Source: Candidatus Uhrbacteria bacterium RIFOXYC2_FULL_47_19
GTDB taxonomy: Bacteria; Patescibacteriota; Patescibacteriia; SG8-24
DNA length: 36,375 bases
Reading direction: 5' to 3'
NCBI GenBank assembly: GCA_001791745.1
Contig: MGFG01000033.1
Location: 1 to 36,375 of the forward strand
Part shown: one piece after another, positions 12,974 to 34,268 of the stretch
Layout: each line of letters begins with the position of its first letter
Position numbering within the stretch: position 1 is the first letter of the stretch
Notes under the pieces: model-generated
What the model was told of the DNA's origin: nothing
Database searches by the model: none
Seen by the model: the letters and a program-made list of their open reading frames with translations, nothing else
Made by a program: the position numbers and the translations under genes

Positions 12974-13963
12974 ATGAGTCAGCAGGGGATCATTAAGTTG
13001 ATCGGTGAGTTTTTGACTTACTTGGAGGTCGAACGTAATCGATCAGAAAGAACGGTTAGGAATTACGATTTTTATTTACGTCGATTTTTTGAATGGGCGA
13101 ATTGGCCGACTGCATCTGGTATTACCCTTGATATGGTTAGGAAGTTTCGAGTTTGGCTTAATCGTCTCAAAGACGAGCGCGGTAACACTCTAAAAAAGAA
13201 TACTCAGAACTATCACTTGATTGCCCTGCGGTCTTTTTTGAAGTATTTAGCCAAACGTGACATCAAAACTTTGGTGCCAGAAAAGATTGAGTTGGCTCGG
13301 ATGCCAGAGCGGACTGTTGATTTTCTTGAACCAAACGAACTCGACCGATTAATGGAGGCGCCAGTTAGTGATGCGAGTGGATTGGTTCGAGTGGCGGTCA
13401 ACCTGCCACTTATCAAACTGCGCGATAAGGCGATTTTGGAGATGTTGTTTTCGACCGGGTTGCGTGTTTCGGAATTGGCCGGGCTTACTCGGGAGATGGT
13501 CAACTTGGAACGAGAGGAGTTCACTGTGCGCGGCAAGGGAGACAAGCCGAGGATTGTGTTTACTTCTAATCAAGCGCGTTACTGGTTGAAGGAGTATTTA
13601 AATCGGCGGCAAGATGTTGAGGAGTTTTTGTTTGTGAGTCATGATCGGGCGGCCAGGGGGCGAGATGCTGAGCGGTCATTAACCCCACGAAGTATTCAAC
13701 GGATCGTCGAGGGGTATGCACACAAGGCCGGCATCACTAAGCGGATTACACCTCACGTATTACGACATACTTTTGCCACTGACTTATTGCGGAACGGTGC
13801 TGATATAAGAAGTGTGCAATCAATGCTTGGTCATTCTTCTATTACTACGACTCAGGTTTATACGCACATTACCGATGAGCGATTGCGCGAGGTTTATGAT
13901 GCGTATCACGGTGTTGGTAAGAAGGGGCGCAAGATCGGAAACAATTCTATTAAGAAGCATTGA
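12974..13963 (+). CDS. tyrosine recombinase, XerC/XerD-like
   Basis: 329 residues with an N-terminal SAM-like core-binding domain (about 8-95, ending QNYHLIALRSFLKYL) and a C-terminal catalytic domain. The catalytic residues are all present: Arg in TGLRVSELAGL, Lys in GKGDKPR, His-x-x-Arg in HVLRH, His in LGHSS and the nucleophilic Tyr in QVYTH. CPR genomes usually have one such Xer protein that resolves chromosome dimers. It stands about 120 bp upstream of tRNA-Arg and the tRNA-anchored island, so it could also supply integration and excision activity for elements that lack their own integrase; this is inference. Confidence 0.92.
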   Translation: MSQQGIIKLIGEFLTYLEVERNRSERTVRNYDFYLRRFFEWANWPTASGITLDMVRKFRVWLNRLKDERGNTLKKNTQNYHLIALRSFLKYLAKRDIKTLVPEKIELARMPERTVDFLEPNELDRLMEAPVSDASGLVRVAVNLPLIKLRDKAILEMLFSTGLRVSELAGLTREMVNLEREEFTVRGKGDKPRIVFTSNQARYWLKEYLNRRQDVEEFLFVSHDRAARGRDAERSLTPRSIQRIVEGYAHKAGITKRITPHVLRHTFATDLLRNGADIRSVQSMLGHSSITTTQVYTHITDERLREVYDAYHGVGKKGRKIGNNSIKKH

Positions 13964-14079: not shown

Positions 14080-14156
<77 letters not shown>

Positions 14157-14278
14157 TAAAACTTCGATAGGCCGTTGAAGGTTGGGAGATTATCACTTAT
14201 CTCTACTGCTTGGGCGATAGGTAGCGGCCTTAGCCGCTCTCTCCACAAGCATTTCCACTACGTAGAAATGCCCCGCCA

Positions 14279-14318
14279 AAGCAGTAGGTCGCACGTTCGA
14301 GTCGTGCCGGGCGCACCA
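14279..14318 (+). repeat. duplicated 3' half of tRNA-Arg (att-like)
   Basis: An exact 40-bp copy of the last 40 bases of tRNA-Arg (14117-14156), from the anticodon-stem 3' side through the CCA. The two copies are 162 bp apart. The intervening DNA (14157-14278) carries no gene. This is what a tRNA-targeting element leaves after integration and loss of its cargo. Confidence 0.7.
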
Positions 14319-14337: not shown

Positions 14338-14413
14338 GGTGGCCATGGTGTAATGGTTAACACAGCAGGTTGTGGTCCTGCTAATACGGGTTCGATTCCC
14401 GTTGGCCACCCCA
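14338..14413 (+). tRNA. tRNA-His (anticodon GTG)
   Basis: Acceptor GTGGCCA pairs with TGGCCAC, and the extra G(-1) faces C73, the mark of tRNA-His. Anticodon stem GCAGG/CCTGC has loop TTGTGGT. The T-arm is CGGGTTCGATTCCCG and the CCA is encoded. Its 3' 19 bases recur at 18.07 and 21.16 kb, so it is the anchor of the mobile island. Confidence 0.95.
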
Positions 14414-14451
14414 TCAAAACGCTATCCCCGAAATGGGGATGGCGTTTTGAT
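14413..14451 (+). terminator. long hairpin directly after tRNA-His (copy R1)
   Basis: ATCAAAACGC...GCGTTTTGAT form an outer stem extended by ATCCCC/GGGGAT around a GAAAT loop, about 17 pairs, starting at the last base of the CCA. It looks like a tRNA terminator, but the same outer stem with a different inner stem recurs at 17874-17911 and 20958-20995. Confidence 0.6.
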
Positions 14452-14732
14452 TTGAGGTAGATCAACGGGAATCGAACGGGGTCGAGCCGCGAGCCGATGA
14501 GCGGCGAGACGGGCGACAAAGGTCGCCCGAGCACAGCAGGTTTCAGTTTTTTGATCGAGACCATGCCGAGGAATCGACGTACGGCCAGAAGCAATCCGCC
14601 CCGTGACTTGGTGACGATACGCTTCGGGCTTTCGTGATGGCCTGAGCCGGCGTAAGGCCTGACGTAGCCCAAGCAACGCAGTGGTGCGTTCGGGGCCGCT
14701 AGGCGAAATTACCTCTAATCACTTAATTTCCA
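14452..14732. repeat. tRNA-derived and palindromic filler left of module A
   Basis: No gene is seen. 14463-14477 is an exact inverted copy of the tRNA-His T-arm (reverse complement of 14390-14404). 14532-14542 repeats 11 bases of the anticodon arm (CACAGCAGGTT). A perfect 8-bp hairpin CGGGCGAC/GTCGCCCG lies at 14510-14529. The stretch GAGCCGCGAG also matches R2, so this is the leftmost diverged copy of the R repeat. ORFs reported here are antisense translations of tRNA sequence. Confidence 0.5.
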
Positions 14733-14759
14733 AAAATATCGCTAAAATGCGATATTTTT
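14733..14759. terminator. bidirectional hairpin, left copy
   Basis: AAAATATCGC/GCGATATTTT, 10 perfect pairs, 6-nt loop. A near copy with a compensatory base-pair change is at 21172-21198. Confidence 0.6.
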
Positions 14760-14789
14760 GGTTAGTGTGTCGCATTTCTGCAGGGACTA

Positions 14790-14971: not shown

Positions 14972-15607
14972 ATGAACACAGAATTCGCATCCGCCGGACT
15001 CACCGCCGGCCAACTCGACGCCATCGTCAAGAAGCTCGGTGGCCACGACATGGCGCTCCGTTTTCTCCGCGACGAACTCTCGGTTTCCGAACCGATCCGT
15101 TCGTGGCGCGAGGAAGACGGCGTTATCTACTTCTCGGTCACCAGCGACGGCACGACCGGCGAGGACTGGATCACCCGGCTCGAAAGCAAAGGCTTCTGCG
15201 TGGGTGACAACGCCAAACAGGTGCTCCGTTCGCCGGACTTCAAGCCGACGAGCGGCGTGACGACCGAAGTCGCCGTTCTCAAGGGCATGCTCTTCGAGGA
15301 TAACGACCGGATCACGAAAAAGATTCGCGCCGAGGCCGACAAGCGCAAGTTCTCGAAGTCGAACGCCGAACTGGCCTGCCTCATCCGTGAGAAGTTCACG
15401 GACAAGGAGATCGAAGCGATGGGTCTGTGGTACATCGTTGCCATGCACGAACCCATCAACGACTCCGACGGCGGTCCGGACTTGCTGCGTGCGGACCGTG
15501 GCCGCGATGGTCGCTGGCTCCGCGCGTGCTACGGCAGGCCTGACTACAGGTGGAATCGTGACAGCGGGTTCGCGTTCGCCGTGTCGCAAGTCAGTTCTCA
15601 ACCCTAA
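14972..15607 (+). CDS. DGR variable (target) protein
   Basis: 211 residues. The N-terminal two thirds (LTAGQLDAIVKKLGGHDM, RSWREEDGVIYFSVTSDGTT) are invariant and resemble hypothetical proteins I have seen repeatedly in CPR genomes. The C-terminal about 42 residues are encoded by the variable repeat; DGRWLRACYGRPDYRWNRDS followed by GFAFAVSQ is consistent with the C-type-lectin-like fold that displays DGR variation, although the fold is inferred. A good Shine-Dalgarno (AGGAGA) precedes the ATG. Base composition is distinctly GC-richer than the RT and flanking genes, which suggests separate ancestry. No signal peptide is seen, so the protein is probably cytoplasmic or exported in another way. 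The ligand is unknown. Confidence 0.85.
   Translation: MNTEFASAGLTAGQLDAIVKKLGGHDMALRFLRDELSVSEPIRSWREEDGVIYFSVTSDGTTGEDWITRLESKGFCVGDNAKQVLRSPDFKPTSGVTTEVAVLKGMLFEDNDRITKKIRAEADKRKFSKSNAELACLIREKFTDKEIEAMGLWYIVAMHEPINDSDGGPDLLRADRGRDGRWLRACYGRPDYRWNRDSGFAFAVSQVSSQP
15464..15589 (+). repeat. DGR variable repeat (VR)
   Basis: 126 bp at the 3' end of the target gene, aligned without gaps to TR at 15936-16061 (offset 472). By eye there are 15 differences and all 15 fall on adenines of TR (changed to G, C or T). The last about 23 bp (GGGTTCGCGTTCGCCGTGTC...) are identical and contain almost no A, as expected for the initiation-of-mutagenic-homing region. Confidence 0.93.
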
Positions 15608-15614
15608 GATTCTC

Positions 15615-15628
15615 GGGACTTCAGTCCC
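15615..15628 (+). other. small hairpin just after VR (IMH-associated?)
   Basis: GGGAC-TTCA-GTCCC, 26 bp after the end of VR and just past the stop codon. DGR target sites elsewhere have a short hairpin or cruciform downstream of VR that aids homing; this one is in the right place. Function is inferred. Confidence 0.45.
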
Positions 15629-15642
15629 TTTGACCTTAGCCC

Positions 15643-15683
15643 TTAGCCCTGTTTCGCTCCGTCGGAGCAGGGCTAAATTTTTT
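15643..15683 (+). terminator. terminator of the DGR target gene
   Basis: TTAGCCCTG (15643-15651) pairs with CAGGGCTAA (15668-15676), with GCTCC/GGAGC stacked inside, followed by ATTTTTTC. It separates the target mRNA from the TR transcript. Confidence 0.8.
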
Positions 15684-15708
15684 CATAAAAATAAATTTCA
15701 TATATAAT
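15681..15708 (+). promoter_or_regulatory. putative promoter of the TR RNA
   Basis: Perfect TATAAT at 15703-15708 with a weak TTTCAT (15681-15686) 16 bp upstream that overlaps the T-tract of the preceding terminator. Start is expected near 15716. Confidence 0.5.
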
Positions 15709-15935
15709 ATTCGTGGCAGTAGGTGAATATGCGGACGGTCAAGGCTTTCCGCTACCGACCCCAGTATCCATGCATCGAGAGTATCCGTGGCTACGGTTTC
15801 GGATAGAGTGGTGCATGCAGAAACTTCAATAAAAAAGAAGATACTTGGCGCAAGACATTAAGGCATTGCGATGCCGGATTCGATTCAACCCTGAGAGTAT
15901 TCGAGGGGCGGTGATATGGAAGATGTTTCGCGCAA

Positions 15936-16061
15936 TCCGACGGCGATCCGAACTTGCTGAATGCGAACCGTGACAACGATGGTCGCTGGCTCAACGCGTA
16001 CAACGACAGGCCTGACAACAGGTGGAATCGTGACAACGGGTTCGCGTTCGCCGTGTCGCAA
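15936..16061 (+). repeat. DGR template repeat (TR)
   Basis: The 126-bp invariant donor for VR. Read in the VR frame it is rich in AAY codons (Asn), the codon type that yields many amino acids but no stop when A is randomised. The encoded string would be NANRDNDGRWLNAYNDRP and so on. It is followed after 6 bp by the stop of avd on the opposite strand. Confidence 0.93.
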
Positions 16062-16067
16062 CTCTCT

Positions 16068-16496
16068 TCATTTCTCTCCGGCTTTTGCTGGAGAGTTTTG
16101 TTTTGTAAGCTGTCCGTTCCATCCGCCGAGCATTTTGCCGGCCTCATCCAACTTTACGGAAAGGGCGATGTATTTCTTGTCGTCGATGGATTTCGTTTCC
16201 CAAAGCACCAAAAGAAGTACGCGGAGAGTGTCCGCTTTCTTGATCGCGAGACGAACATACGGATGTTTCTCCTCACGCGAAAGAAAACTGGCGGCCGAGA
16301 TCGCTTCTATTATTTCTACAAACAAAGTATCGATGCGCTGACCGAGAGAATGACGATGCGTCTTTGGCAAATCCAGATAAAATTTGTACCACAAAAGGTA
16401 CGACTCCTTGACTTTACTTAAAACCGGTAAGATCTTATTGATTGATTGATTGATTGATTGATTGCCACCATTATGCCCAAAATTAGATTTCATCAT
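16068..16496 (-). CDS. avd: DGR accessory protein Avd (four-helix bundle, S23-like)
   Basis: The minus-strand frame from about 16430 to 16068 reads ILPVLSKVKESYLLWYKFY, LPKTHRHSLGQRIDTLF, SREEKHPYVRLAIKKADTLR and ends EAGKMLGGWNGQLTKQN. This is the pattern of the 23S-rRNA-intervening-sequence/Avd four-helix-bundle family. Avd binds the DGR RT and the TR RNA and is needed for mutagenic cDNA synthesis. It lies between TR and RT but on the opposite strand, convergent with TR. The conserved part begins right at the (ATTG)7 tract, where no usual start codon exists in frame. The nearest in-frame starts are the tandem ATGs at 16496/16493, on the far side of the repeat and overlapping the RT start, so the N-terminus (MMKSNFGHNGGNQSINQSIN) depends on the repeat number. 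Confidence 0.8.
   Translation of the reverse strand: MMKSNFGHNGGNQSINQSINKILPVLSKVKESYLLWYKFYLDLPKTHRHSLGQRIDTLFVEIIEAISAASFLSREEKHPYVRLAIKKADTLRVLLLVLWETKSIDDKKYIALSVKLDEAGKMLGGWNGQLTKQNSPAKAGEK
16074..16105 (+). terminator. terminator of the TR RNA
   Basis: CTCTCCGGC-TTTT-GCTGGAGAG, 9 pairs, then TTTTGTTTTG on the plus strand, 12 bp after TR. It lies inside the antisense 3' end of avd. Confidence 0.7.
16437..16464. repeat. tetranucleotide microsatellite (ATTG)7
   Basis: Seven perfect tandem copies of ATTG (CAAT on the minus strand) end 8 bp before the RT ATG and lie inside the 5' end of the avd frame. Each unit supplies a TTG codon to the plus strand. A change of one unit would shift the avd frame relative to its upstream ATGs and alter the spacing before the RT start. 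Confidence 0.95.
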
Positions 16497-17477
16497 ACAT
16501 ATAATAATATCATCTCGCTCGAAAATCTCCTCGAGTCGTGGCAAGAATTCGTCCGCGGCAAGCGAACGCGGAAAGACGTGCAGGAATTCGAGCGAGATTT
16601 GATGACGAACATCATCGCGCTTCACCGCGAGCTTGCCGTGAAAAAATATTCGCATTCGGCATATCAACATTTCAAAATCGCCGATCCGAAACCTCGTGAT
16701 ATTCATAAAGCAAGCGTTCGTGACCGGCTTTTGCATCATGCATTGCACAGGCAACTGTCGCCATTTTTCGCAAAGACTTTTATTTCTGACTCGAATTCAT
16801 GCCAAGACGGGAAAGGAACGCACCGCGCTCTCCGCAGGTTCAGAAAATTCATCGGCGCGGTATCCGAAAACAATATACGGACGGTATGGGTGTTCAAATG
16901 CGACATCAGAAAGTTTTTCGCAAACATCGATCATGCAATTCTTTTGGATATAGTCGCTAAATATATTCCCGATCAAGATATTCTCGATCTCGTATCGGTC
17001 ATCGTCCGGAGCTTCCATTCAAGCAATGCAGACATCGGGCTTCCACTCGGCAATTTGACGTCCCAGCTTCTGGTAAATATTTACATGAATGAATTTGATC
17101 AATTTGTGAAGCATCGACTCAAGGCGAAATATTATCTGCGTTACGCCGACGATTTTGCCGTCCTTTCGACGGATAAGACCTGTCTCGAAAAGATTTTGCC
17201 GGTGATGCAGGAGTTTTTGGGAAGCAAACTAAAACTCGCCATGCATCCGGATAAGATTTCCATTCAGACCGTCGCATCTGGCGTGGATTTTCTCGGTTGG
17301 GTGCATTTTCCGGATCACAGAGTATTAAGAACGACGACCAAAAAACGAATGTTCAGGAACATACAAGCGAAAGACGAAAAGGAAGAAACGGTGCAGTCAT
17401 ATTTAGGACTTATCAGCCACGGCAACAGCTGGAAATTGCGACAGAAAATTCTAAGGAAGGGAAAATTGCTTAATTAA
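16473..17477 (+). CDS. DGR-type reverse transcriptase
   Basis: 334 residues from the ATG; the open frame also has a TTG at 16458 inside the microsatellite. RT motifs in order: the N-terminal DGR region (NIISLENLLESWQEFVRGKR), motif A CDIRKFFANID (about 143-153), GLPLGNLTSQ (about 189-198), the xGxxxSQ form typical of DGR and other bacterial RTs in place of QGxxxSP, and the catalytic YADD (about 224-227) in YYLRYADDFAVL. The C-terminal thumb follows (VDFLGWVHF). It copies TR RNA into cDNA with adenine-directed errors for transfer into VR. There is no maturase or endonuclease domain, so it is not a group II intron RT. The start of avd on the other strand overlaps by about 24 nt if its upstream ATG is used. 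No good Shine-Dalgarno is seen. Confidence 0.93.
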   Translation: MPKIRFHHTYNNIISLENLLESWQEFVRGKRTRKDVQEFERDLMTNIIALHRELAVKKYSHSAYQHFKIADPKPRDIHKASVRDRLLHHALHRQLSPFFAKTFISDSNSCQDGKGTHRALRRFRKFIGAVSENNIRTVWVFKCDIRKFFANIDHAILLDIVAKYIPDQDILDLVSVIVRSFHSSNADIGLPLGNLTSQLLVNIYMNEFDQFVKHRLKAKYYLRYADDFAVLSTDKTCLEKILPVMQEFLGSKLKLAMHPDKISIQTVASGVDFLGWVHFPDHRVLRTTTKKRMFRNIQAKDEKEETVQSYLGLISHGNSWKLRQKILRKGKLLN

Positions 17478-17870
17478 GCAAATCGTCCCAACGGTTCAAA
17501 TTTGGTCGAATCGGTGGTCGAAGGTGCAAGCTGGGTCAAACCGTCGATTTCTCGTACAAAGCTCGCCGCCGGGGCAAATAGTTTGGCAAAAAACGGTTAG
17601 ATAAGGTTAGTTGCGGTTAAGTGATTTTATGTCGGATTCTTTGCTCAAAACCGGTGGCTACTGGTGGGATAAGGTGAAATGGTTTTGGACCGGACTTTTG
17701 CCAAAAACGGGTGAGTTAGGGTGACTTGGGGTGAGTCGGCTACTTGGGCTGGTATGGCATCGGGAAGTCATAAAACTTGCTAACACGCTTGATATTGTTG
17801 ATTTTTTCGCGTACCGTAACCATATAATCCCTGTCCTCGAGTACGGTTATAACTCCGGATAGTGCCCGAC
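17478..17870. other. gene-free tail of module A with short tandem repeats
   Basis: About 390 bases without a clear gene. Three adjacent decamers GTGAGTTAGG, GTGACTTGGG, GTGAGTCGGC lie at 17711-17740, preceded by looser GGTTAG and GGTGG echoes. They could be binding sites for a recombinase or RNA repeats; no function can be assigned. Confidence 0.4.
17740..17862 (-). pseudogene. possible C-terminal gene fragment cut by repeat R2
   Basis: One minus-strand frame running out of R2 reads GVITVLEDRDYMVTVREK then INNIKRVSKFYDFPMPYQPK and a TAG stop at 17742-17740. It has the look of a real protein end (charged helix then a Pro/Tyr tail), has no start codon of its own and loses sense inside R2. I do not recognise the family. 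It may be the remnant of a gene destroyed when the repeat moved in, or chance. Confidence 0.25.
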
Positions 17871-18081
17871 CCCATCAAAACGTCCGACCCTTTTGGGTCG
17901 GGCGTTTTGATTTGGTAGGTCAAACGACGGGAATCGAACGGGCAGAAGTGAGCCGCGAGGCACCGTCCAGTGCCGAGCTGGCGAATGTCGATGAATCCGA
18001 ACCGGTGAGGATTCATCGCTGCCCCGGACAAGGAAGGACGGCATTCGGCCGGCCGACGCGGAATTCCCGTTGGCCACCCCA
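17871..18081. repeat. island repeat R2 ending in a tRNA-His att copy
   Basis: 210 bp with 12 mismatches by eye to R3 (20955-21164). Order of parts: hairpin ATCAAAACG...CGTTTTGAT (17874-17911), inverted T-arm of tRNA-His (17927-17939), a 9-bp inverted repeat GATGAATCC/GGATTCATC, and at the end ATTCCCGTTGGCCACCCCA (18063-18081), identical to the last 19 bases of tRNA-His including CCA. It is the junction between modules A and B. Confidence 0.85.
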
Positions 18082-18258: not shown

Positions 18259-18290
18259 ATAGTATATATTACAAATTAAATTTGCTTATT

Positions 18291-19223
18291 ATGAATACTC
18301 GTCAAAAGTTGGAGATAATTCAAAAAATGTTGGGACTAACCCAGACCAAGCTGGCTCTAAGGTTTGGTGTTTCTTTTGCCGCTTTCAACAGTTGGTGGAC
18401 CGGCAAATCTAACCCTCGAGCAAAAATGCAGACTTCCATTGATGAGCTTTTTTTGGAAGTAACCGGACAAAAAGTAATTCCGATCGATCAACTTACGGCA
18501 AAAAAACAAGCCCTACAACAAAAATCCGGAAAACATAAAAGTGTTATAAATGAAATTTTGGCTAATCCGGATATTCGTGATCAGTTTATTTTGAAACTCA
18601 CCTATCACAGCAACAGCATTGAGGGCAGTACTCTTACCGAACCCGATACTGCGGCTATTCTTTTTGACAACACAGCTTTGCCAAATAAAAGCTTGACCGA
18701 ACAACTAGAGGCAAAAAATCACCAGACGGCCTTGAATTATTTATTTGATCATATTGCTAAAAAAGAAAAAGTTGACGAAGCTCTTGTGCTTAAACTCCAC
18801 AGTATTCTCATGAATGGCGTTCGCCCAGATGCTGGTGTTTATCGTAATCACGCCGTCAGAATTACCGCTGTTAATTTGCCAACAGCGAATTATATGAGTG
18901 TTCCAAAACTTATCCCAGAGGTTATGGCTCGTATTACTGAAAAAACCAAAGACATTATTTCTTTATCGGCTGGCGTGCATAGTAAGTTTGAACAGATTCA
19001 CCCATTCGGAGATGGAAACGGCCGTGTTGGACGTCTCTTGATGAACGCAATGCTAATTAGCACAAATTTTACTCCCGCAATTATTCGCCAAGAACAAAAA
19101 CAGCTTTACTACACTTATCTCTATAAAGCCCAAACAAAAGAGGATCAGAGCCAATTGGAGGATTTTCTCTGTGAGGCGGTAATGGACGGATTCAAAATCT
19201 TAGACCGCACGGATGTAAGATAA
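18291..19223 (+). CDS. HTH-Fic protein, self-inhibited Fic enzyme
   Basis: About 310 residues. The N-terminal helix-turn-helix domain (LGLTQTKLALRFGVSFAAFNSWW) is followed by an inhibitory helix motif SNSIEG (S/TxxxEG, about 107-112) and a Fic domain with the full catalytic motif HPFGDGNGRVGR (about 227-238). Fic enzymes transfer AMP or another nucleotide moiety to Ser/Thr/Tyr of target proteins. The inhibitory Glu before the Fic core makes this a class II, autoinhibited type. The ATG at 18291 is preferred to the TTG at 18282. Two palindromic operators precede it, suggesting autoregulation. It is cargo of module B and may serve as a toxin-like or regulatory AMPylator; the target is unknown. 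Confidence 0.88.
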   Translation: MNTRQKLEIIQKMLGLTQTKLALRFGVSFAAFNSWWTGKSNPRAKMQTSIDELFLEVTGQKVIPIDQLTAKKQALQQKSGKHKSVINEILANPDIRDQFILKLTYHSNSIEGSTLTEPDTAAILFDNTALPNKSLTEQLEAKNHQTALNYLFDHIAKKEKVDEALVLKLHSILMNGVRPDAGVYRNHAVRITAVNLPTANYMSVPKLIPEVMARITEKTKDIISLSAGVHSKFEQIHPFGDGNGRVGRLLMNAMLISTNFTPAIIRQEQKQLYYTYLYKAQTKEDQSQLEDFLCEAVMDGFKILDRTDVR

Positions 19224-19250
19224 TAGCCGTTCGTCTCACACTTAAAATAT

Positions 19251-19667
19251 ATGATTTCTATCAGTGAACAACAGCTTGAGTTATTTATGTCGCTGTTTCG
19301 AGGAAGAACAGATGTTTACGCACGTCGCTGGGAAAAGGAAGAACGATCTGGATACAGCCCGGCCTATAATTTTAATTGGGATGAATTCATGGCATATAAG
19401 CGACGGGGCGGATCAATGAAAGATTTTGAAAATAAGAAACTCATACCCCTAACCAAAGGAATCGTTAATAAACATCTTATCGGTCAGCATGTTGTTGGTA
19501 TATATCCAATTCTAGCTGACAATACTTCATATTTTATTGCAGCTGATTTTGACGGTGAGAATTGGTTGAAGGAGGAGGTGTCAAAGGTCTACCCGGGGGA
19601 CAAAACTCGCTTCAAGGGCAGACAAGGGGCAACAACGTTTTATTTTTTGGCTAGGAGGAGGTCGTAG
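19251..19667 (+). pseudogene. truncated archaeo-eukaryotic primase, TOTE conflict-system type
   Basis: The first about 108 residues (LFRGRTDVYARRWEKEERSG, then HVVGIYPILADNTSYFIAADFD) match the start of the primase domain found in TOTE-type conflict-system proteins as I remember it, including the catalytic-region string AADFDGENW. The normal protein continues for several hundred residues with helicase and nuclease parts. Here it changes after NWLKE into an unrelated basic stretch and stops at 138 aa. GGAGGAGGT occurs at both edges of the odd tail, so a short-repeat deletion may have made the junction. It lies 27 nt after the Fic gene in the same direction. It is most likely a non-functional relic; expression as a small protein cannot be excluded. 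Confidence 0.6.
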
Positions 19668-19692
19668 TTGTAAAACTTAGCAAACAATCCAC

Positions 19693-19720
19693 TTGGCATT
19701 TTCTGAAATCATGCTATAAA
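19693..19720 (+). promoter_or_regulatory. promoter of the GC-rich gene of module B
   Basis: TTGGCA (19693-19698), 16 bp, TATAAA (19715-19720), followed at 19727 by TTCTTTGA, the same octamer as in the DGR target leader. Confidence 0.55.
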
Positions 19721-19748
19721 TATACGTTCTTTGAAATAGAAACTCCCG

Positions 19749-19801
19749 TTGAAAGCGGCGTTTTGTAGCTCATTTTGTGGGCTTCAGTAGGCCGCTTTCA
19801 A
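19749..19801 (+). promoter_or_regulatory. hairpin leader of the GC-rich gene of module B
   Basis: A perfect 11-bp stem TTGAAAGCGGC/GCCGCTTTCAA with a 31-nt loop, between promoter and start codon. It parallels the leader hairpin of the DGR target gene. Confidence 0.5.
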
Positions 19802-19880
19802 TCAAGGACAACTCCAAGTCTTCGGGAATGATCTCGAAGTCTGGACAGTCGGCGGTTTACGCAAGGAAAGTGTGACGCCC

Positions 19881-20723
19881 ATGGCCAACACCATCATGGA
19901 GATCAAGCAGAACGAGATGTCGGCAACGCTTCGCAGCCTCGGAGAGGCCGGAGCCACGACCGATCACTCGGATTGGATGCGCGGTCGCGGCAACGCGGCG
20001 CTGCTTGTCCAGTTCATCGACCAGCAGCGGGGTCTCTCGGAGAAGAACTCCTACGAGACGTCCGTCGAGCTCCAGCTCACCGCTCTCCGTCGTGCGAACG
20101 ACGAGGAGAAGTGGGGACTGACCGAGGACGACTTCGCACGTCTCGCCTCGTCCGCTCCTACATGGCCGAAGGGCAAGTCCGCCTACCGTTCGTTCCGTAT
20201 TCGCTTCGGCGAAGGGGACGAGGGCGTCGCCAAGACGTTCGAGGCGCACTATGCGCGCATCCAGCACGTCTTCGGCGAGGGTCGGTACTGGCGCTGGGAG
20301 CACCTCCACTCGGGCAAGGTCGAGTACAATGGCAAGCCCGTGGAGCGTCTGCGGCTCCTGAACGGCAATCACACCCACAAAGCCGTCATCGAGTGGGTGG
20401 TGGTCGATCTGGATACGCACCGCAATCGCGAGAGCATCACGGCGGTGCGCGGCTCGAAGTCGCTCGCCGACGAGATACTCGTCATCGCGTGGATGTTCCC
20501 GGACATGATCCGCGCCATCGACTACGACAAGCTCCCCGGCTTGTTCGCCGCTGGTTACGAGGTTAACGTCCCCGAGTACGGTGGCGAGGCGTGGCAGAAC
20601 GTCGTGATCGTGCTCTTCTACCGCGACGACTGTCAGGTGGACGTGAGCACTAGCGACCACAGCGACGACAGCTCCGACTACTCGGTTCCGGTTTTTCGGG
20701 AGTCCCCAGCACTCGGCACTTGA
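19881..20723 (+). CDS. GC-rich accessory protein of unknown function
   Basis: About 280 residues, soluble, without signal peptide or membrane segment. Notable stretches are TLRSLGEAGATTDHSDWMRG, NAALLVQFIDQQRG, YRSFRIRFGEGDEGVAKTFE and a C-terminal Ser/Asp-rich tail ending DSSDYSVPVF. It resembles hypothetical proteins that I believe recur in CPR genomes, but I know no domain for it. Its high GC sets it apart from the Fic gene and matches the DGR target gene, and like that gene it has a hairpin leader. Unlike it, there is no visible variable repeat. The start may be ATG 19881 or GTG 19872; AAGGAAAG lies just upstream of both. The long antisense ORF is a composition effect. Confidence 0.7.
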   Translation: MANTIMEIKQNEMSATLRSLGEAGATTDHSDWMRGRGNAALLVQFIDQQRGLSEKNSYETSVELQLTALRRANDEEKWGLTEDDFARLASSAPTWPKGKSAYRSFRIRFGEGDEGVAKTFEAHYARIQHVFGEGRYWRWEHLHSGKVEYNGKPVERLRLLNGNHTHKAVIEWVVVDLDTHRNRESITAVRGSKSLADEILVIAWMFPDMIRAIDYDKLPGLFAAGYEVNVPEYGGEAWQNVVIVLFYRDDCQVDVSTSDHSDDSSDYSVPVFRESPALGT

Positions 20724-20839: not shown

Positions 20840-20941
20840 TGCGAAAAATCTGCTACAATTTGATACGGAAAGTAGGCTCATGAATCGGCGAAAATGGCCG
20901 TCGATCCGTCCATTCTTACCTTCAAAAAAGTTCTAAAGTCG

Positions 20942-21166
20942 TCCCGTTGGCTATCCCATCAAAACGTCCGACCCTCTTGGGTCGGGCGTTTTGATTTGGT
21001 AGGTCAAACGACGGGAATCGAACAGGCAGGAGTGAGTTGCGAGGCTCCGTCCAGTGCCGAGCAGACGAACGTCGATGAATCCTAACCGGTGAGGATTCAT
21101 CGCTGCCCCGGACAAGGAAGGACGGCATTCGGCCGGTCGACGCGTAATTCCCGTTGGCCACCCCAT
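20942..21166. repeat. island repeat R3 ending in a tRNA-His att copy
   Basis: R3 proper is 20955-21164, about 94% identical to R2 and with the same internal order: hairpin 20958-20995, inverted T-arm 21011-21023, 9-bp inverted repeat, and terminal ATTCCCGTTGGCCACCCCAT (21147-21166), identical to the tRNA-His 3' end plus one base. A degenerate att (TCCCGTTGGCTATCCCATC) also precedes it. It is the right edge of the island. Confidence 0.85.
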
Positions 21167-21171
21167 TCCTG

Positions 21172-21198
21172 AAAATACCGCTAAAAGGCGGTATTTTT
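21172..21198. terminator. bidirectional hairpin, right copy
   Basis: AAAATACCGC/GCGGTATTTT, 10 perfect pairs. It differs from the left copy (14733-14759) by one compensated pair (C-G for T-A) plus loop changes, and is followed by the same TTGGTTAGT. Confidence 0.6.
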
Positions 21199-21223
21199 GG
21201 TTAGTAGCGAATGGACGAGAGGG

Positions 21224-25486: not shown

Positions 25487-26007
25487 TTGCTAAACCCGGG
25501 CCGAGACACGGGATTCCTTATTGTTAGACTTTTACTTCTGGGTCCCGGATACTGCTCGCTACACTCGCAGTTCCGGGACGACAACAGGAATAATGTTCAG
25601 TTCGCAGTTTCGGGACGACAAAAGGAATAATGTTCAGTTCGCAGTTCCGGGACGACAGTATTTTTTGTTATCTCAATTCTTCTTATGTTTTTGTCATCCT
25701 TACTTTTTATTTTGTCATCTTAAAACCTCGAGCCTTTTTAACATGTCATCCCGGAAATTGCGTCAGCAATTATCCGGGATCCAGAAGCTAATCCCGATCT
25801 CTTTACTTCTGGGTCCCTGATACCGTTCGACTCGCTTCGCTCGCTCACGGTTCCGGGACGACAGTATTTTTTGTTATCTCAATTCTTCTTATGAATCTGT
25901 CATCCTATACATAAAAATATGTCATCCCTACTTTTTAATCTATCATCCCGAAAGGCCGAGCAAAGCGAGGTCTATCCGGGATCCAGAATCTAACCCCGAT
26001 CTTTTTT
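25487..26007. repeat. mosaic palindromic repeat cluster I
   Basis: About 520 bp without a gene, made of interspersed copies of GTCATCCCGG / CCGGGATGAC-type palindromes, CTTCTGGGTCCCGGAT blocks and 36-37-bp tandem units (GACGACAAAAGGAATAATGT...). 25539-25687 is the mirror image of 33886-34034 (149 bp, 3 mismatches by eye). Such families are dispersed REP or MITE-like repeats; ORFs read through them are artefacts. Confidence 0.85.
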
Positions 26008-26225
26008 GCGGGACGATCCCGACGTGGCAATCTCGGAGGCGGCCGGGCTCGGTCCGGAGCCCGCGGCGACGGCCGGTCGTCGAGAGTTAGGGCGGACCGC
26101 CGCCGGAGCGGGCCGACCCGTGCCGCGCGGGACCGTCCCGCAGGGGGTCCGGGGCGTGAGCCCCGTCCTTCCGCGGAGCGGAGCCGGGGGTCTGAGGGAC
26201 TGGAACTCCCCCGGGTTGAAGAAAG
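26008..26225. other. very GC-rich hairpin block
   Basis: About 220 bp of strongly GC-rich DNA in an AT-richer context. Perfect hairpins are GGGCTC/GAGCCC (26045-26062), GCGGGAC-C-GTCCCGC (26127-26141) and GGGGC-GTGA-GCCCC (26151-26164) with a GNRA-type loop. The reported ORFs of both strands are Pro/Arg/Gly composition artefacts. It could be a structured RNA or a mobile GC-rich repeat. Confidence 0.5.
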
Positions 26226-33729: not shown

Positions 33730-33744
33730 ATCCAATCCTTCTTA

Positions 33745-34268
33745 CGTATTTGTCATCCTTACTTTTTATTTTGTTATCTTGAAACCTCAAGCCTTTTTAA
33801 CATGTCATCCCGGATAGACCTCGCTCCGCTCGGCCTTCCGGGATGACAGAATAGAAAGGCTCACAATTTTCGGGATGACAAAATACATAAGAAGAATTGA
33901 GATAACAAAAAATACTGTCGTCCCGGAACTGCGAACTGAACATTATTCCTTTTGTCGTCCCGGAACTGCGAACTGAACATTATTCCTTTTGTCGTCCCGG
34001 AACTGCGAGTGTAGCGAGCGGTATCCGGGACCCAGAGGCAAAAAAGGATCGGGATTGGTTTCTGGATCCCGGATAGTCGCTGCGCTCCTTCCGGGATGAC
34101 ATGTTAAAAAGGCTTGAGGTTTCAAGATGACAAATTAAAAAGGCTTGAGGTTTCAAGATGACAAAATAAAAAGTGAGGATGACAAATTAAGAAAGGTTGC
34201 GGTTTCGAGATGACAAATAAAACACTGTCGTCCCGGGCCGAGACCCGGGACCCAGGAGCAGAAACATA
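33745..34268. repeat. mosaic palindromic repeat cluster III
   Basis: About 520 bp without a gene. 33886-34034 is the inverted copy of 25539-25687. It also holds direct copies of TTTGTCATCCTTACTTTTTA and, in the other orientation, tandem units AAAAAGGCTTGAGGTTTCAA. The same pieces recur at the end of the window. Confidence 0.85.

Follow-up and report, generated by a model that had tools for sequence, protein, structure and literature searches.

The repeat units at a tRNA-His gene

The window analysed here is the whole 36,375-nt stretch of contig MGFG01000033.1 from Candidatus Uhrbacteria bacterium RIFOXYC2_FULL_47_19 (contig C33 of genome G000, 1.04 Mb). On its forward strand, a tRNA-His gene is followed by a repeat (R1), a diversity-generating retroelement (DGR), a second repeat (R2), a run of Fic, primase-like and unknown genes, and a third repeat (R3). 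The repeat is a member of an apparently undescribed family of small, protein-less DNA elements in many bacteria of the candidate phyla radiation. The anchor gene, tRNA-His(GTG), was located by ARAGORN at 14339-14413 and encodes its CCA; its T-loop (nt 54-60) is the presumed insertion point.

R2 (17871-18081) and R3 (20955-21165) are 94% identical across 211 nt, and R1 has the hairpin and the inverted arm in common with them, the rest of R1 being decayed. The original prediction, made from the sequence alone, had described a hairpin with a constant outer stem and a differing yet pairing inner stem, followed by an inverted copy of the tRNA-His T-arm. The base pairs bear this out: the outer stem ATCAAAACG/CGTTTTGAT is identical in R1 (hairpin at 14413-14451), R2 (17874-17911) and R3 (20958-20995), while the inner stem of R1 is unlike that of R2 and R3, with pairing retained in all three. 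The inverted arm GGGAATCGAAC lies 3' of every hairpin (14467-14477, 17929-17939 and 21013-21023), and R2 and R3 terminate, as predicted, in the direct copy ATTCCCGTTGGCCACCCCA, equal to tRNA-His nt 58-76. A decayed copy terminates R1.

A unit consists, in order, of a terminator-like hairpin (H), an inverted copy of the T-loop and T-stem (INV), a folded core of ~110-130 nt and a copy of tRNA nt 58-76 (DIR). In R2, the hairpin H2 is preceded by a boundary made up of GTTATAACTCCG and a degenerate tRNA-His 3' end (17846-17874), and is followed, after a short spacer, by INV2 (CGACGGGAATCGAAC, 17925-17939), which complements tRNA-His nt 53-65, by the core (17940-18062) and by DIR2 (18063-18081). The corresponding parts of R3 are a boundary of GTTCTAAAGTCG and TCCCGTTGGCTATCCCA, the latter a copy of the tRNA-His 3' end (20930-20958), then H3, INV3 (21009-21023), the core (21024-21146) and DIR3 (21147-21165). 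An inverted repeat behind this last unit forms a terminator (21172-21201), which by analogy with the tRNA-Glu and tRNA-Gln sites described below is probably the ancestral terminator of tRNA-His. In R1, H1 (ATCAAAACGCTATCCCC..GGGGATGGCGTTTTGAT) is followed by INV1 (CAACGGGAATCGAAC, 14463-14477), an inverted T-stem/T-loop copy that matches the INV of the family in place and type. The remainder (14478-14766), recognised from a direct repeat (D7) with 21125-21205, comprises a decayed core, which the covariance model search missed, a degenerate DIR and a terminator copy (14731-14766) that is also present behind R3.

A covarying fold 3' of the hairpin

INV pairs with DIR to form a stem, P1, of which the inverted T-arm is the 5' arm and the direct copy the 3' arm. 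In the core of R2, helix P2 (GGGCAG/CTGCCC, 17940-17945/18019-18024) encloses P3 and P4; then come CCGGACAAGG and a hairpin, P5. The original prediction had placed a structure kept by covariation, perhaps a folded recombination site, in the hairpin H. That part of the claim did not hold: H is an element-borne terminator and the least conserved part of the unit, with a near-perfect stem of 14-20 bp whose sequence is unrelated across genomes, and it is absent in some family members. Strong and general covariation was located instead in the 149 nt 3' of it (17925-18073), in INV, core and DIR.

The first 11 units, in a MAFFT-based alignment, gave 42 pairs with double changes in 29 of them. Among 118 distinct units, 88.4% of the cells at these positions were paired, compared with 59.1% after shuffling (0/500 shuffles) and 37-42% in slid versions, and double changes were found at all 42 modelled pairs. 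The 118-unit alignment was fitted to the covariance model, which inflates these pairing figures; the 11-unit alignment had already given covariation. The case for the fold rests on comparison, since the predicted RNA fold of R2 only modestly beats shuffled sequences (z about -2), as does the DNA fold of either strand. Covariance model R1 scored 153 bits for R2, which was within the training set, and 143 bits for R3; independent matches reached E=1e-20 and better.

Distribution of the family

BLAST searches within the same taxonomic family detected units in G005 and nine matches in G007, standing at tRNA-Glu, Met, Ser, Lys, His, Arg and Cys. In the class, 81 of 381 genomes were found by the covariance model to carry units, frequently more than a single one; at most eight candidates per genome were scored in this class-wide scan, so that unit counts are lower bounds. 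Fuller scoring gave 14 units in G007, 13 in G170 and 10 in G000, and a second covariance model detected units in two further families of the phylum. A degenerate pattern scan of 84,980 species, filtered with the model, left 43 matches, all of them in Patescibacteria records or unnamed metagenome-assembled genomes; Moran-, Doudna-, Komeili-, Kerfeld-, Uhr-, Magasanik- and Taylorbacteria were represented, among others. None of the pattern matches in named non-Patescibacteria was confirmed by the model (by our own estimate, about 119 chance matches are expected for the pattern), nor were any of the 8 exact pattern matches in viral contigs.

Rfam 15, at permissive and gathering thresholds, gave no match at the units, only tRNAs and one group I intron. 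A group I intron-like nature of the unit itself was rejected, the core being too short and without a group I match. As a separate observation, one unit-bearing tRNA (L091, 1743-2018, on contig G523:C5) is apparently interrupted by a group I intron (RF00028). We found no description of the family in the open PubMed Central (PMC) literature, although absence there is not proof.

The arms copy the adjacent tRNA

Of the 118 units, 78 start no more than 130 nt 3' of a tRNA gene, and these genes represent 15 amino-acid types. Units adjacent to a tRNA are always on the tRNA sense strand and typically begin 43-58 nt past the tRNA 3' end, behind a near-perfect hairpin that starts right at that end. In about 41 of the 78, DIR stops no more than a few nucleotides from where the tRNA ends, with CCA in most genes that encode it, and in 15 units the duplication extends 45 nt or more. 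As had been proposed, nearly all copies link a structure to the tRNA end in both its orientations; the hairpin does not occur mostly as a plain tRNA terminator lacking the inverted arm.

INV matched its own tRNA at a mean of 11.6 of 13 positions, compared with 9.6 for other tRNAs (0/10,000 permutations). Plain chance as the origin of the units is excluded by this match and by the covariance model scores. Unusual T-loops are copied too: TGCAATT of a Cys tRNA as AATTGCAC, TGCGAAT of a Met tRNA as ATTCGCAC, several TTCAA loops as TTGAAC, and the Leu loop TTCAAAT. The contiguous match of INV is 7-19 nt long and includes a copy of nt 53-57, which is not present in DIR. The arm first described as an antisense tRNA-His T-arm is one at the present locus; in general, it copies whichever tRNA the unit sits behind.

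P1 follows the host tRNA in sequence, whereas different tRNAs of one genome have the core in common. In 20 cases the nearest other core came from the same genome (1.9 cases expected; maximum 11 in 5000); the tRNA type was shared in 8 cases (7.6 expected). These nearest-neighbour statistics rule out vertical inheritance with one unit lineage per tRNA type. Because INV matches its own tRNA while cores resemble same-genome rather than same-tRNA cores, the arms appear to be rewritten for each target, and a single core lineage thus occupies many tRNAs, with both arms fitting each. To explain such a mismatch between arm and core, either the element must acquire a copy of the target on insertion, or its arms must be corrected, or gene conversion must be confined to the cores.

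Related designs were seen at other tRNA loops. At the tRNA-Arg gene of the window (14080-14318), an anticodon-loop version combines the INV CTACTGCTT (14203-14211) with a core formed by a small hairpin and with a direct copy of 40 nt that runs from the anticodon loop to CCA (14279-14318); a similar type at tRNA-Met of G009 (L266) has CTCTCCACA in common with it. Upstream of tRNA-Lys in G007 (contig C4; L015, about 930-1300), tandem units of ~88 bp lie in the tRNA-Lys D-loop, with the tRNA 5' half duplicated. These contain GGCGGCCTTAGCCGC, common to the tRNA-Arg anticodon-type core, and perhaps represent a third type, targeting the D-loop. Another tandem unit behind tRNAs of G007 (L015, L016 and L011) starts with a CGTAAA-hairpin and ends in CACGTGGCGCAGCCA, which is able to pair with the first hairpin arm.

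Empty and occupied sites

In G009, from the same genus as G000, the tRNA-Glu site is empty, with ACAGCACGTCTCCTCACGGAGGCGTGTTTTTGTTG behind the tRNA. The same gene in G000 is followed by a different hairpin, INV, core and DIR, and then by AGAGCGCGTCTCCTCACGGAGGCGTGTTTTTGTTG, a homologue of the empty-site terminator. This homology indicates that H arrived with the unit. The inserted piece is about 200 bp and includes its own terminator; the tRNA transcription unit is therefore retained. At tRNA-Gln, a 5 kb array of two units is followed by a terminator like that of the empty site, and at tRNA-Met, two species have both terminators in common but different inserts, one of the T-loop and one of the anticodon-loop type. 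The unit is thus made up of tRNA nt 58-76, its own terminator H, INV and the folded core. Its insertion leaves the tRNA whole, ending in the new terminator, and displaces the old nt 58-76 (DIR) and the old terminator rightward.

Cargo arrays

The original prediction had asked whether copies always flank exchangeable cargo. Units do so in some arrays, but most of those seen are cargo-less insertions of ~200 bp. Behind tRNA-Asp on contig G170:C41 (L073), three units alternate with two pairs of open reading frames (ORFs), and on G121:C11 (L072), successive array blocks hold paralogous lipoprotein-like ORFs. Units within arrays mostly have their own H, preceded by the 3' end of the array's own tRNA in worn form. 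Read by eye, the segment running from GTT(C/A)(T/C/A)AA to H exceeds its counterpart in the tRNA by exactly five nt in about nine of these units, and GTTCTAACNTCG or close variants recur in this longer stretch in different genomes. The extended stretch looks like the other junction of a cassette, and such units seem to act like the cassette sites of integrons in setting cargo blocks apart.

In the window, a DGR is carried as cargo between R1 and R2 (14972-17477). It comprises a target ORF (14972-15607) with the variable repeat (VR, 15464-15597), the template repeat (TR, 15936-16069) and a reverse transcriptase gene (16458-17477; PF00078, E=2.3e-23), all on the forward strand. Since 15 of the 18 TR/VR differences fall at TR adenines, the DGR is genuine. 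The second cargo (18282-20723), also on the forward strand, holds a Fic-domain gene (18282-19223; PF02661, E=8.4e-19), an ORF with a TOTE-type primase domain (19251-19667; PF22548, E=4.5e-33) and an ORF of unknown type (19872-20723). Elsewhere in the window, at 25530-26010 and 33730-34260, the glycosyltransferase genes are flanked by extended families of repeats of ~30-40 nt (TGTCATCCCGGGA... type) that occur in both orientations.

A proposed folded attachment site and its alternatives

To the following interpretation we give an even chance: R1-R3 are small, protein-less insertion units behind Patescibacteria tRNA genes, in which INV, core and DIR together serve as a folded-DNA attachment site. 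P1 would rebuild the T-arm/acceptor duplex of the tRNA in single-stranded or extruded DNA, and a putative trans-acting recombinase or transposase would join the folded site to the T-loop, between about nt 57 and 59. Cassettes would accrete at the tRNA, as at integron attI, and when the element moves to another tRNA, its arms might be renewed from the target, either by fold-back copying or through arm correction. In a bolder version, which we advance tentatively and find possible rather than probable, the ~150 nt folded nucleic acid reprograms itself: INV recognises the tRNA gene by pairing across its T-loop, the element inserts by way of the putative enzyme and both arms are rewritten for each target, so that one core can colonise many tRNA genes of a genome and form the junction between gene cassettes.

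Several observations weigh against a folded attachment site of this kind. Only one fully clean empty/occupied pair is available, and gene conversion of cores could imitate retargeting. Mismatches show no clear strand preference (P2 points to the bottom strand, P3 to the top), and the conserved unpaired bases CGAAC, CGGACAAG and CGAGCG go beyond what an attC site needs and would suit an RNA. No enzyme has been tied to the units, and their role in recombination is one that we infer. In G551, a single contig that is 95% complete and has 8 units, no tyrosine recombinase, Y1 transposase, RVT_1 or IS110 was detected, and the second tyrosine recombinases of the family (G001, G003 and G005) are not adjacent to units. 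Xer-like genes occur in nearly all genomes; two unit carriers, G551 and G601, had no PF00589 match and are therefore apparently without Xer, and in G007, with its 14 units, a Xer-like gene is the only tyrosine recombinase. A number of carriers, among them G007, G523 and G551, gave no Y1 transposase match; RVT_1 went undetected in 11 of the 20 carriers tested, these three included, and the IS110 recombinase (DEDD) was present in only 1 of 40 genomes tested. None of these four, then, is present in every carrier as a common enzyme; the units are moved by some other enzyme, or else they are fossils in carriers from which it has been lost. A Xer-like recombinase gene does lie just 5' of tRNA-Arg/tRNA-His in the window (12974-13963), and likewise near tRNA-His in G007, probably as conserved synteny and not as part of an island.

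It is unlikely, in our judgement, that the units are remnants of ordinary tyrosine-integrase islands, in which DIR would be the displaced tRNA 3' fragment, the element would restore the tRNA and the core would be decayed attP DNA. Displaced 3' tDNA fragments and crossovers in the T-loop or anticodon loop are known hallmarks of such islands (PMC4383910), the tRNA-Arg sister type in the window uses the anticodon loop, and the tRNA-Glu unit of G000 has an integrase remnant behind it. That remnant, however, stands at the empty site too. The units are mostly ~200 bp without an integrase, two carriers have no PF00589 match at all, and the core is not decaying DNA, since it is conserved and covaries across many genomes. 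INV is left unexplained.

The original prediction had offered an RNA as the alternative to an attC-like site. We attach the same low probability to a structured RNA (a regulator, ribozyme or guide), expressed by tRNA read-through or from its own promoter, with INV pairing with the tRNA T-arm. The multi-helix covarying fold, the constant sense-strand orientation and the conserved loop bases agree with it, and it is on account of those bases that RNA remains in contention. The pairing statistics speak for folded DNA. Core helices that were otherwise intact gave 32 G.T and 26 A.C mismatches, compared with 118 G.T and 8 A.C in the acceptor and T-stems of the tRNAs at the same loci under the same rule (P=2e-9); leaving out the outermost P2 pair gave 31 G.T and 14 A.C (P=8e-5). 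Since G-U should be far better tolerated than A-C in an RNA fold, this argues for selection on DNA. Furthermore, a strong terminator usually lies between tRNA and unit, presence is patchy (81/381), the tRNA served differs between relatives, and tandem copies and cargo arrays do not fit an RNA.

A retroelement-like process is improbable. In it, a core RNA would be copied by target priming and INV would arise by fold-back synthesis, perhaps through a DGR-type reverse transcriptase. This would suit the precise 3' junction, the variable 5' arm, the long flanking duplications in 15 units and the DGR reverse transcriptase carried as cargo, but it is opposed by the RVT_1 results, by the copy in INV of nt 53-57 that DIR lacks, and by an H unlike the displaced terminator in most units. 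That the units are plain tRNA terminators with a chance resemblance to tRNA has a negligible probability: H is a terminator-like hairpin, but the model matches, tRNA match statistics and covariation that refute this reading all lie 3' of it.

Few mobile elements have been described in Patescibacteria. If the proposed function is correct, this protein-less element, carried by roughly one in five sampled genomes of a single class, would represent a novel means of assembling gene arrays, in which it copies its target into its own arms and joins cargo, including a hypermutating DGR, to tRNA genes. It would raise the question of which host enzyme joins the folded element to the T-loop; should the arms serve as a guide, the element would add to the naturally programmable integration systems. 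The covariance model, together with empty and occupied sites, offers a marker for recent gene capture in uncultured lineages.

Comparison with known systems

Retroelements differ from the units in that a reverse transcriptase was not found in 11 of 20 carriers; the DGR of the window is cargo. In IS110 elements with bridge RNAs, a structured non-coding segment complements the target on both sides of the insertion site. The units resemble them in this, but the recombinase was found in only 1 of 40 genomes and the pairing pattern argues against an RNA. The ends of IS200/IS605 elements and the derived repetitive extragenic palindromes (REP) and miniature inverted-repeat transposable elements (MITE) are small folded non-coding units in which a guide-like stretch by the hairpin foot pairs with the target. 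The units share both features; they differ from IS200/IS605 in that Y1 transposase was not found in G007, G523 or G551, the guide is rewritten for each target and a duplication of the tRNA 3' end flanks the unit.

The tRNA islands of tyrosine integrases (Islander class) likewise target the T-loop or anticodon loop, restore the tRNA 3' end and leave the displaced 3' fragment at the far end. The regenerated tRNA and displaced fragment were both found here; a non-Xer integrase inside the island was not, either from tRNA-His to R3 in the window or in G007, where only the Xer-like gene is present. Unlike such islands, the units are ~200 bp, lack an integrase, have a conserved covarying core and an inverted tRNA copy, and use 15 tRNA types.

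Integron cassettes carry attC sites, defined as folded imperfect palindromes (PMC8946536). The units are like them in forming cassette arrays split by folded palindromic sites that grow at one anchor, in keeping structure more than sequence (here with covariation at 42/42 pairs) and in a cassette that itself lacks the recombinase. R and L boxes, which in attC sites come with an unpaired central spacer and extrahelical bases, were not obvious in P1 and P2, no attC model being run. Integrons recombine the bottom strand of attC with a double-stranded attI, and the mismatches here give no clear strand bias. No IntI-type integrase was found (G551 and G601 being without a PF00589 match, G007 with only the Xer-like gene). 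The units differ in being anchored at the tRNA T-loop, with many anchors per genome and arms that copy the anchor tRNA, and in having a ~150 nt multi-helix fold with conserved loops, their own terminator and often no cargo. That they work like a tRNA-anchored, attC-like folded cassette site is partly supported; membership among integrons is unproven and fails on the integrase. The units would be less novel if a tyrosine recombinase moved them; otherwise, their newness would lie in the combination of a protein-less, folded element with target-copied arms and many tRNA types.
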